Shown piece after piece: positions 33,885-37,375 of a stretch of 64,000 nt of DNA. The notes below the pieces were generated by a model, which saw only the letters and a program-made list of their open reading frames with translations, was not told the DNA's origin and did no database searches. Location: positions 2,791,001 to 2,855,000 of the forward strand of contig NC_007760.1 of NCBI RefSeq assembly GCF_000013385.1, given 5' to 3'. The DNA is from Anaeromyxobacter dehalogenans 2CP-C. GTDB lineage: Bacteria > Myxococcota > Myxococcia > Myxococcales > Anaeromyxobacteraceae. Position 1 is the first letter of the stretch. The number at the start of each line of letters is the position of its first letter. A program made the translations under genes and the position numbers.

Positions 33885-33910
33885 GTGTCGGCCGCGCGAC
33901 ACGCCTGTCG
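33885..33910 (+). promoter_or_regulatory. Candidate enhancer-binding-protein sites (TGTCG array)
   Basis: GTGTCG (33885-33890), six bases, CGACAC (33897-33902), four bases, TGTCG (33906-33910): three half-sites in alternating orientation, forming two overlapping inverted repeats about 75 bases upstream of the -24 element. Distance and symmetry fit an upstream activating sequence for a sigma-54 activator. Confidence 0.5.
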
Positions 33911-33975
33911 CGCTCCCGCATCAGTCGTTGCGCGGCGGCCTTCGAATCCCGAACAATGTCCGGCCGGCGCGGAGG

Positions 33976-33991
33976 TGGCACCGGCCTTGCT
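33976..33991 (+). promoter_or_regulatory. Sigma-54 promoter for the DUF3108-DUF4091-DUF3108 cluster
   Basis: TGGCAC (33976-33981), five bases, TTGCT (33987-33991): an exact match to the RpoN -24/-12 consensus TGGCAC-N5-TTGCW, with transcription expected near 34003, 60 bases before the DUF3108 start. Confidence 0.75.
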
Positions 33992-34062
33992 CTATCTCGG
34001 GGTGACCGCGCACCGCTTCGCGCGCGGCGTGGCTCGGAAGAAGCGACTGGAGATCCGCCGCA

Positions 34063-34812
34063 ATGACCAAGACCTGGACCCTCGCCCTCGCCGCCCTCCT
34101 CGCCGCCGTCCCCGCCTCGCGCGCCGACGCCTTCGCGCCGGGCGAGGAGACGGTGTTCAGCGTGCGGTACCTGAACCTCCCCACGGGTGAGGGGCGCATC
34201 GTGGTCGGTCAGCCGGAGGGCGACGTGTGGCCGGTGATCTTCCAGGCCAAGACCGAGGGCGTGGCGGGGTTCATCGACATCCGCGAGCACCTGGTCTCGT
34301 ACTGGGACTCCTCGGCCCGGATGAGCCGCGGCTCCGATCTGAAGGCCTACGAGGTCGGCGACTACCACGTGGACTCGGCGCGCTTCGACCGGGCGAACGG
34401 GCAGGCGACGGTGGTCGTGCAGCGGAAGGGGAAGCGCAAGGAGAAGACCTTCCCGATCGCGGCCGACGCGCACGACCTGACCAGCGCGTTCATGTGGATC
34501 CGGCTGCAGCCGCTGACCATGGGGCACCGGTACGAGCTGCCGGTCGTCTCCGGGTCGAAGCAGTTCACCCTCGTGGCCGAGGTGGTGGGCCAGGAGCGCA
34601 TCGAGACGCCGGCCGGGACGTTCCCCACGCTGAAGGTGAAGGTCCGCACCGCGCTCGAGGGGAAGTTCTCGACCAGCCGCGACTCGTACATGTGGCTCTC
34701 CGACGACCCGCGCCACATCCTGGTCCGCGCCTCCGCCGACTTCGCGGTGGGCAGCATCGTCGCGACGCTGAAGAGCTACCGGCCCGGCGGCGAGGTGGCG
34801 GCGGTCCGCTGA
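34063..34812 (+). CDS. DUF3108-domain exported protein (first copy)
   Basis: A 249-residue protein with a signal peptide (MTKTWTLALAALLAAVPASRADA, residues 1-23). The rest is a beta-rich DUF3108 domain: PGEETVFSVRYLNLPTGEG at the start, HLVSYWDSSARMSRGSDLKAY, then ETPAGTFPTLKVKVRTALEG and LSDDPRHILVRASADFAVGSI. The family is predicted periplasmic and of unknown function. First gene after the sigma-54 promoter; 51 bases separate it from the DUF4091 gene. It is only distantly similar to the second DUF3108 copy at 36587. Confidence 0.85.
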   Translation: MTKTWTLALAALLAAVPASRADAFAPGEETVFSVRYLNLPTGEGRIVVGQPEGDVWPVIFQAKTEGVAGFIDIREHLVSYWDSSARMSRGSDLKAYEVGDYHVDSARFDRANGQATVVVQRKGKRKEKTFPIAADAHDLTSAFMWIRLQPLTMGHRYELPVVSGSKQFTLVAEVVGQERIETPAGTFPTLKVKVRTALEGKFSTSRDSYMWLSDDPRHILVRASADFAVGSIVATLKSYRPGGEVAAVR

Positions 34813-34863: not shown

Positions 34864-36558
34864 GTGCGGGCGGACCCGGGCGACCACCTTCGCGGCGTGA
34901 CCGCCCCCGCGCTCCTGCTCGCCCTCCTCGCGCTCGCCCGCCCCGGCCCGGTCCCCCGGGCCCCGGCGGAGCCGGCGCTCGAGTGGGCCGTGGCGAGCGG
35001 CCTCGACAAGCTCCGGCCCGCCGATCCGCTCCCCGCCGCCCGCGCGGTGGACCTGGTGGCGGCGCGCGGGGAGTGCGAGTCGGCGCAGGTGGCGGTGCGT
35101 CCCCGCGGCGCCGCGCTCGCGCTCGGCGCCGAGGCCGCGCCGCTCTCCCCCGAGGCGCGCCGCCGCGGGCGGCGGATCCCGGTCGCGCTGTACCGGGTGG
35201 CGACGGTGCGCCTGGCGCGCCCGAGCGGACCGGACGGCGCCGCCGGCGAGTGGCCGGACCCGCTCGTGCCGGTGCGCGACGCCTGGTTCCGCGAGGCGCG
35301 CCGCGCGTTCCCGGTGGAGGTCGCGGCGGGCCGCCTCCAGGCGATCTGGGTGGAGGTGTGCGTCCCCCACGACGCCGCGCCCGGCGCGTACGCGGGCGTG
35401 GTGCGGCTCTCGGCGGGCGGCCGGCGCCTCGCCGAGGTCCCGGTGCGGCTGCGGGTGTGGCCGTTCGCGATCCCGCGCACCGGCACCTTCGCCGCGCCGT
35501 TCGGCCTCTCCACGCGGCTCGGCACCCGCGCGCTGGGCGTGCCGGACGATCCCGAGGTGGCGCGCGCGCTCGCCGCGGCCGCGCTGCGGCACCGCGTGAC
35601 GCCGTTCACGCTCTCGGCCGACCCGCCCGACGGCACGTGCACGGCGGGGCGCTGCGCGCTCGACTGGTCGCGCTACGACGCGGAGGTCGGGCCGGTGCTG
35701 GACGGGACGCTGGTGCCCGGCGTGCGCGGCGCGTTCGCCGAGGTGCGCATCGCCGGGCGGGTCTGGGACGGCCCGGAGGCGGACCTCGCCGCCACGCTCC
35801 GCGCGTGGCGGGCGCACTTCGAGGCGCGCGGCTGGGCGGACCGGCTCTGGCTCTACACGCTCGACGAGCCGCGGCCGGAGCAGCTTCCCGAGCTGGCGCG
35901 CCGGGCGCGGCTCGCCCGCGCCGCCGGCATCCGCGTGTTCGCCACCACGCTGCCCCAGCCGGCGCTGGACGGGCTGGTGGACGCCTACGCGCCGGTGCTG
36001 AACGCGCTGCCGGAGGGGCGCGCGCCGCCGCGCGTGGCGTTCTCCTACGCGTCCTGCATGTCGCACGGGTGCGCGGAGCTGCCCGGGGGCGGCCCGCTCC
36101 GCGCGGAGATGCTCCGCACGTTCGCCGGCTGGCCGGGCTACGAGATCGACCGGCCCGGCGCGGCCGCGCGCGCGGTGGCGTGGCTCGGCTGGCGGCGCGG
36201 CCTCTCCGGCGAGCTCTACTACGATATGCTCCAGGCCTGGCGAGGCGACCCTTGGACCGACGTGCGCGCGTTCGCGGGGAATGGCGACGGGACGCTGCTC
36301 TACCCGGGGAGGCCGGCCGAGCTCGGCGGGACGCGGCCGTTCCCGGTGGAGTCGATCCGGCTCAAGATCGTGCGCGACGCCCTGGAGGACGTGGAGCTCC
36401 TGCGGCTCGCCGCCGCCGCGGGCCTCGGCGGCCTGGCCGCCGCGACGGCGGAGGGGCTGGTGCCGGCGCCGCGCGGGTGGGAGCGCGACCCTGCCCGCTG
36501 GCTCGCGGCCCGGCGCCGGCTGGGGGACGCGCTCGCCCGGCGCCTCGCGACCCGCTGA
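34864..36558 (+). CDS. DUF4091-family exported glycoside-hydrolase-like protein
   Basis: A 564-residue protein from GTG 34864; GTG 34897 is an alternative, nearer the hydrophobic segment (APALLLALLALARPGP). Neither has a clear ribosome-binding site. Residues about 40-210 form an N-terminal beta-sandwich; the second half resembles a TIM barrel, with LWLYTLDEPRPEQ (about 330; the D-E-P is family-typical), then GLSGELYYDMLQAW and the DUF4091 signature GDGTLLYPG ... PVESIRLKIVRDALEDVELL. A paralogue is cut by the left window edge. Flanked by two DUF3108 genes (51 and 28 bp). Likely acts on a carbohydrate polymer in the envelope; substrate unknown. Confidence 0.82.
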   Translation: MRADPGDHLRGVTAPALLLALLALARPGPVPRAPAEPALEWAVASGLDKLRPADPLPAARAVDLVAARGECESAQVAVRPRGAALALGAEAAPLSPEARRRGRRIPVALYRVATVRLARPSGPDGAAGEWPDPLVPVRDAWFREARRAFPVEVAAGRLQAIWVEVCVPHDAAPGAYAGVVRLSAGGRRLAEVPVRLRVWPFAIPRTGTFAAPFGLSTRLGTRALGVPDDPEVARALAAAALRHRVTPFTLSADPPDGTCTAGRCALDWSRYDAEVGPVLDGTLVPGVRGAFAEVRIAGRVWDGPEADLAATLRAWRAHFEARGWADRLWLYTLDEPRPEQLPELARRARLARAAGIRVFATTLPQPALDGLVDAYAPVLNALPEGRAPPRVAFSYASCMSHGCAELPGGGPLRAEMLRTFAGWPGYEIDRPGAAARAVAWLGWRRGLSGELYYDMLQAWRGDPWTDVRAFAGNGDGTLLYPGRPAELGGTRPFPVESIRLKIVRDALEDVELLRLAAAAGLGGLAAATAEGLVPAPRGWERDPARWLAARRRLGDALARRLATR

Positions 36559-36586
36559 GCCCCGGCCCGCGCGCGGGGCGGCGCAG

Positions 36587-37375
36587 ATGACCTCCGCCGC
36601 GCTGCTCGCGCTCGCCCTGCTCGCCCCCTCCGCCACGCCGGCCGCCCCGGCCTGTGGCCCGCCGCCGCTCGCCGCGGGGGCGCGCCCCTGGGCGCCGGGC
36701 GAGACGCTCACGTTCGACCTCGACCTGCTCGGCATGGTGCGCGCCGGCACGCTCCAGCTCTCGGTGGAGCGCCCCATGTCCGGCGGGCGCGTCGTCCCGC
36801 TGCGCGCCCGCGCGCGCACCGACGCCTCGCTCGCCGCGCTCAAGAACGTCACCGCGGTGGGGCTCTCGTGGGTGGACGCGGACACGCTCCTGCCCGAGCG
36901 GTACCGCGACGAGGCGCTGGAGAACGGCGTCCGCAAGGTGAGCGACACCCGGCTCGCGCCGCCGGGCGGCGAGGTGGTGGTCGCGTACCGCTACGGCGAC
37001 CGCGAAGGGAAGACCGCGTACGCGCGCCAGGGCCACGTGCTCGACGCGCTGTCGGCGGTGTACCTGCTGCGCGCGGCGCGCCTCGCGCCCGGGGAGGCGT
37101 TCTGCTTCGACCTGGTCGCGAACCGGCGCTTCTGGCGCCTGGAGGGGACGGTCGCGCGGAAGATCGAGCCGGTGGACACGCCCGCCGGCCGGTTCCAGAC
37201 GCTGCGCGTGGACGCGGTGGCGCGCCGCGCGGACGACCCGGACGCGCGGGCGCGCCCGCTGCACCTGTGGTTCACGAACGACCGGCGCCGCCTGCTGGTG
37301 GCGGCGGTGAGCGAGATCGACCTCGGGCCGGTGCGCGCGATGCTGGCGAGCGTCCACGGCGCGCGCGCGCCCTGA
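36587..37375 (+). CDS. DUF3108-domain exported protein (second copy)
   Basis: A 262-residue protein with a signal peptide (MTSAALLALALLAPSATPAAP). DUF3108 features: PGETLTFDLDLLGMVRAGTL at the start of the mature part, the 'ERYRDEALENGVRKVSDTRL' middle, DTPAGRFQTLRVDAVARR and FTNDRRRLLVAAVSEIDLGPV near the end. It shares with the first copy the TPAG.F.TL.V strand and the (N/D)D.R..LV motif, so the two are paralogues that diverged long ago. 28 bases after the DUF4091 stop; converges on the 37392 gene 16 bases away. Confidence 0.83.
   Translation: MTSAALLALALLAPSATPAAPACGPPPLAAGARPWAPGETLTFDLDLLGMVRAGTLQLSVERPMSGGRVVPLRARARTDASLAALKNVTAVGLSWVDADTLLPERYRDEALENGVRKVSDTRLAPPGGEVVVAYRYGDREGKTAYARQGHVLDALSAVYLLRAARLAPGEAFCFDLVANRRFWRLEGTVARKIEPVDTPAGRFQTLRVDAVARRADDPDARARPLHLWFTNDRRRLLVAAVSEIDLGPVRAMLASVHGARAP

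Follow-up and report, generated by a model that had tools for sequence, protein, structure and literature searches.

The DNA between positions 33897 and 33991 of the window is best read as a sigma-54 promoter driving a gene of the DUF3108 family, with an upstream site for an enhancer-binding protein (EBP) that is common to this promoter and that of lpxC, the gene for commitment to lipid A synthesis. We put the probability of this reading, which comes from sequence comparison, at roughly 0.85. The window is the whole stretch of 64,000 nucleotides analysed (Anaeromyxobacter dehalogenans 2CP-C, NC_007760.1, positions 2,791,001 to 2,855,000). The promoter is very probably real and conserved, and ordinary in kind. 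Its operator appears to link it to lpxC, which would reveal a small conserved envelope regulon.

The DUF3108 promoter and its operator

The features in the window are as follows.

33886..33890, + strand: outer TGTCG half-site, only in three of seven same-genus loci (the three closest), outside the conserved operator
33894-33913: full inverted repeat with 8-bp arms
33897..33910, no strand: conserved operator CGACA-N4-TGTCG, the inner inverted repeat, kept in same-genus orthologs
33898-33909: operator core GACACGCCTGTC, the core being found at six places in the genome
33976..33991, + strand: predicted -24/-12 (sigma-54) element TGGCAC-CGGCC-TTGCT, exact match, with 0-1 mismatch in 7/7 same-genus orthologs
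34063..34812, + strand: DUF3108 protein of 249 aa, signal-peptide-like start (by eye), Pfam PF11306 E=5.8e-43
34864..36558, + strand: GH123-like protein, 51 bp downstream of the first DUF3108 gene, weak Pfam matches
36584..37375, + strand: second DUF3108 protein, PF11306 E=7.4e-29

The initial annotation reported an exact TGGCAC-N5-TTGCT element at 33976-33991, and TGGCACCGGCCTTGCT was read there. The GG and GC dinucleotides have the standard spacing of TGGCAC-N5-TTGC(A/T). PMC9765219 quotes a longer consensus, TGGCACG-N4-TTGC(T/A), from which the element departs at one position (C for G). Allowing one mismatch added no further match in the window; at this level, 23 of 100 shuffles of the window gave at least one match. 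The annotation had called an exact element improbable by chance. Eight exact TGGCACN5TTGCW elements were present in the genome (one contig, 5,013,479 bp), where 0.9 would be expected under a first-order Markov model based on the window. With up to one mismatch, the genome total was 55 versus 82 for the reversed control pattern. The relaxed motif was not enriched, so only exactness and conservation are informative. Three other exact elements (L001 at G000:C1:489408, L003 at 799530 and L008 at 4278302) lie about 1.2 kb or less from EBP genes and are possibly targets of these adjoining EBPs.

The DUF3108 open reading frame starts with the ATG at 34063, 71 bases past the element. By the usual convention, sigma-54 transcripts start 12 bases after the C of the -12 box; counting from the C at 33990, +1 is predicted near 34002. 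By its DUF3108 protein, the nearest named relative is Anaeromyxobacter sp. PSR-1 (99% identity). A likeness to LppX (2byo) was discarded, with E=0.015 for one sequence but 0.21 for a 24-sequence profile; no significant match to the DUF3108 profile was obtained in the PDB, and the AlphaFold model was poor (mean pLDDT 39.5). Between 34063 and 37375, the GH123-like gene is flanked by the two DUF3108 genes, a possible single operon. Judged from spacing, the GH123-like gene may be co-transcribed with the first DUF3108 gene, and the second DUF3108 gene may stand last in that operon.

Upstream regions of 18 DUF3108 loci of the same family were compared; second DUF3108 copies without loci were left out. 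All seven same-genus orthologs kept TGGCA(C/T)-N5-TTGCT (five exact, two with one mismatch), so the element is conserved upstream of the same gene. They all kept CGACA-N4-TGTCG further upstream as well, and the remaining intergenic sequence had diverged. Both orthologs in genus g6 carried GACA-N4-TGTC together with a one-mismatch -24/-12 element. In the family, the pair was present at nine of the 18 loci; a -24/-12 element without the operator was found in genera g2 and g5 (L045, one mismatch; L038, L040 and L042, two mismatches), and neither was found at 5/18. Outside the family, the operator was absent from the 11 other-family DUF3108 loci of the order. The outgroup comparison consisted of these 11 loci plus L058 (G022), which belongs to the same family and was kept out of the other-family count. 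The operator was missing from all 12, whose three best -24/-12 candidates had two mismatches and no GG.

The half-sites TGTCG at 33886, CGACA at 33897 and TGTCG at 33906 were where the annotation had placed them, and this cluster is the window's only spot with three TGTCG/CGACA starts inside 20 bases. An activator site upstream of the sigma-54 promoter was supported, but its proposed grouping as TGTCG-N6-CGACA was wrong. The half-site at 33886 is confined to the three closest loci and reads TGACG, TGCCG, TGCCG and TGCGG in the other four same-genus orthologs, so TGTCG-N6-CGACA is not the conserved site; CGACA-N4-TGTCG is. Sites for sigma-54 activators are as a rule some 80-200 bp before the transcription start. 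The centre of the conserved inverted repeat precedes the -24 GG by 62-86 bp, a position expected for an activator site.

The outer half-site also allows a reading as NifA-type control. The NifA consensus is TGT-N10-ACA, and an exact copy can be read in A. dehalogenans at window positions 33886-33901 (TGTCGGCCGCGCGACA). We consider this extremely unlikely, as the left TGT is missing in 4/7 same-genus orthologs and is thus not conserved, and the other promoter that carries the conserved operator is that of lpxC, not of a nif gene.

Alternatively, the inverted repeats might not be a protein site at all but an RNA element or the remnant of a repeat. They form a perfect 8-bp hairpin at 33894-33913, and an identical hairpin occurs inside a REP-like repeat of the g6 genome G021. 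The hairpin, however, lies upstream of the promoter. Its fold z-score was only -1.5, 16 of 200 shuffles folding equally well, and Rfam gave no credible family. The flanking sequence of the repeat is absent, by eye, both here and at lpxC. A repeat or RNA origin is therefore very unlikely. A tRNA or RNA element in the window was also rejected, with none found by ARAGORN, nothing credible in Rfam and the same fold z-score.

The repeat in G021 is dispersed (L235, L278-L282, L284, L285); in it, GCGACA-N4-TGTCGC comes after a AAGGAGGGGTTCACATGG-type stem and often precedes a GTTTCGTCCGGGCGAAAC stem. A regulon built on the many extra CGACA-N4-TGTCGC copies in this genome was rejected: they lie mostly in the REP-like repeat without a -24/-12 element and were therefore not counted as targets.

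The same operator upstream of lpxC

When contexts of the bare operator were collected, a second kind of promoter appeared in two other genera, with a downstream gene that reads as LpxC. The A. dehalogenans lpxC gene (Pfam LpxC, 1.4e-107) has the operator GACATCCGTGTC at G000:C1:1104020 and an exact element, TGGCACGTCGATTGCT, at 1104180. In this genome, the GACA-N4-TGTC core occurs at six places, and two of the six are followed within 250 bp by an exact -24/-12 element, one at DUF3108 and one at lpxC. Against the eight exact elements, two coincidences were observed versus 0.0024 expected (Poisson P ~3e-6). The motif choice was partly post hoc, but the lpxC promoter had been noticed in other genomes before it was located in A. 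dehalogenans. The other four core sites, read on either strand, are not followed within 300 bp by a -24/-12 element, even with up to 3 mismatches allowed. The initial annotation had expected the half-site to be enriched near other RpoN elements. With the corrected motif, a second site emerged at lpxC and there was no general association with RpoN elements: the DUF3108 and lpxC promoters are the only ones that GACA-N4-TGTC marks in the A. dehalogenans genome. One palindrome without a -24/-12 element (L371, G000:C1:259738-259749, GACAGATCTGTC) adjoins a TetR-like reading frame (by eye) and is probably an unrelated repressor operator.

The pair of operator and -24/-12 element was then counted in 24 family genomes. 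At a distance of 45-75 bp, one match each was found in seven genomes, always at the DUF3108 promoter. When the 8-base core was used, the near-spacing class gave one match per genome in 9/24 genomes, again always DUF3108, and the reversed control gave 0/24. The far-spacing class with the same core was present in 22 of the 24 genomes, compared with one control match in all. Of its 26 matches, 21 were lpxC by translation and one (G016) by coordinates; four single matches had no LpxC frame. The same operator with a -24/-12 element thus precedes lpxC in A. dehalogenans itself and in 22/24 family genomes.

The two promoters differ in detail. The distance from operator core to -24 element was 66-90 bp at DUF3108 and 112-173 bp at lpxC. 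Helical phasing between operator and promoter was no more than suggestive (19 spacing classes; Rayleigh p=0.011 with a 10.5-bp period) and was not taken as support, as a 12-bp period fitted better. Two different EBPs with similar sites might act at lpxC and DUF3108. The same-genus DUF3108 sites extend to CGACA-N4-TGTCG (7/7) versus TGACA at the same-genus lpxC sites, and in the A. dehalogenans genome the spacing is 78 bp versus 160 bp. GlrR, moreover, is described as using TGTC/GACA half-sites in a different arrangement (PMC4987338). On the other side, the 8-base core is identical at both promoters and has only six copies in the genome. We give two EBPs a small but appreciable chance.

A further explanation accepts the sigma-54 promoter and assigns the palindrome to a non-EBP regulator, such as a TetR-type repressor, with the activator bound elsewhere or acting from solution. 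GACA-N4-TGTC is plausible as a repressor operator, as the L371 copy next to its TetR-like frame illustrates. Yet the operator always lies far upstream of the -24/-12 element, which is usual for activators and unusual for repressors, and the two are conserved jointly across families. A non-EBP regulator is accordingly an unlikely owner of the site.

To see how far the lpxC arrangement extends, LpxC loci were fetched by protein alone from 28 chosen genomes. Other families contributed 25 of these, and 24 of the 25 were usable (a truncated gene in G057 was excluded). The upstream comparison left out L360, a weak second LpxC match of G039, and L316 (G016) was counted by coordinates. An exact operator with a -24/-12 element (up to 2 mismatches) preceded lpxC in 14 of the 24 other-family genomes of the order: 8/9 in family f4, 4/4 in f7, and 1/2 each in f9 and f6. 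The pair with an exact operator was absent from f3 (0/4) and from f2, f5 and f8 (each 0/1); the f2 genome had an exact -24/-12 element with a one-mismatch operator. Only 0.02% of 4,700 Markov-resampled upstream regions contained the pair. The lpxC arrangement thus occurs widely across the order. As none of the DUF3108 loci compared from other families has the pair, it is probably older than the DUF3108 arrangement.

Candidate activators and the proposed circuit

As the initial annotation had noted, the window contains no activator gene: none of the genome's 45 Sigma54_activat (PF00158) matches falls there. The genome encodes 40 strong Sigma54_activat proteins, none of them in the window. For fifteen of the 40, every one of the four family genomes compared gave a reciprocal best hit, and seven of these 15 (L080, L085, L096, L097, L100, L102 and L141) had no reciprocal best hit in three operator-less genomes (G042, G041 and G027), a comparison that is a weak filter. 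The highly conserved EBPs L075 and L078 had a reciprocal best hit in at least one operator-less genome. G003, G013 and G018 have no DUF3108 ortholog, but selecting EBPs by their absence there was abandoned: lpxC is still preceded by the operator in all three, so this profile is unsuitable for finding the activator.

The exact core was found beside only one of 162 EBP loci in five genomes, and that one was a G021 repeat copy. For nine EBPs searched against NCBIfam, no equivalog was above cut-off among the matches listed. L096 matched the GlrR model to position 444/445, below the model cut-off, which makes it a lead only. In G003, an EBP gene is found about 500 bp from the diverged DUF3108 gene (L151, G003:C143:22836-24513, 43% identity); the A. 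dehalogenans ortholog of this EBP gene is at G000:C1:2410638.

From the computed elements, their conservation, their coincidence and the rarity of the core, we infer the following course. An NtrC-type EBP would bind the inverted repeat GACA-N4-TGTC and loop to sigma-54 RNA polymerase at 33976-33991. Transcription would begin near 34002 and express the DUF3108 gene (34063-34812). One EBP would serve both the DUF3108 and the lpxC promoter. As operator and strict -24/-12 element coincide in the A. dehalogenans genome only at these two promoters, the regulon is proposed to have two promoters, an ancestral one at lpxC and one at the DUF3108 gene, which may have been recruited in Anaeromyxobacteraceae. 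The upstream site matches that before lpxC, so the DUF3108 gene is probably expressed in step with the building of the outer membrane, and the regulon probably tunes outer-membrane and LPS supply.

If this is true, a conserved sigma-54 circuit governs lpxC transcription across myxobacteria, and co-regulation ties DUF3108, a family of unknown function, to the outer membrane. It would also offer a specific and testable explanation of why Myxococcus needs rpoN; in M. xanthus, rpoN is reported as essential for reasons "yet to be elucidated" (PMC2725144). A broader proposal, which we hold tentatively and at somewhat less than even odds, is that in much of the order a dedicated sigma-54 activator on lpxC acts as a lipid A switch. 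Sigma-54 would then be essential in these bacteria, which would account for the essentiality of rpoN in M. xanthus, and Anaeromyxobacteraceae would have added the DUF3108 operon, pointing to an unrecognised outer-membrane role for DUF3108 proteins.

Comparison with known systems

We found no report of sigma-54 control of lpxC in myxobacteria, in literature mostly outside subscription journals. LPS and envelope genes under sigma-54 are a theme common to our case and the proposal of sigma-54 as a controller of the bacterial exterior (PMC3162934), the main text of which mentions neither lpxC, DUF proteins nor Anaeromyxobacter.

Similar to our case, GlrR/QseF at glmY in Enterobacteriaceae is a sigma-54 EBP with TGTC/GACA half-sites (PMC4987338, PMC8745638), and glmY is described as serving cell-envelope homeostasis (PMC6075780). 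The GlrR/QseF site is TGTC-N10-GACA, the inverse of GACA-N4-TGTC, and its target is an sRNA, not lpxC. No TGTC-N10-GACA was found here; the local TGTC and GACA pair is separated by N8 and is not conserved. Nla28 of Myxococcus xanthus is likewise a myxobacterial sigma-54 EBP with paired half-sites, but the half-site is CT(C/G)CG(C/G)AG, the regulon is a starvation regulon, and lpxC is absent from the paper's main text (PMC9765219).

Desulfovibrio already provides a published case of lpxC under sigma-54. In E. coli and Pseudomonas, LpxC is described as regulated mainly at the protein level (PMC3333781). In D. vulgaris, lpxC (DVU2917) is given as the single target of the EBP response regulator DVU2934 (PMC3333781), which is also listed in the sigma-54 regulome (PMC4641369). 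Its host is a sulfate reducer, not a myxobacterium, and the motif before lpxC is reported only in two other Desulfovibrio genomes (PMC3333781). DVU2917 is the only target given for that regulon, whereas the one proposed here has two promoters. What the two cases share is an lpxC gene controlled by an EBP and sigma-54, as reported for D. vulgaris (PMC3333781) and proposed here.
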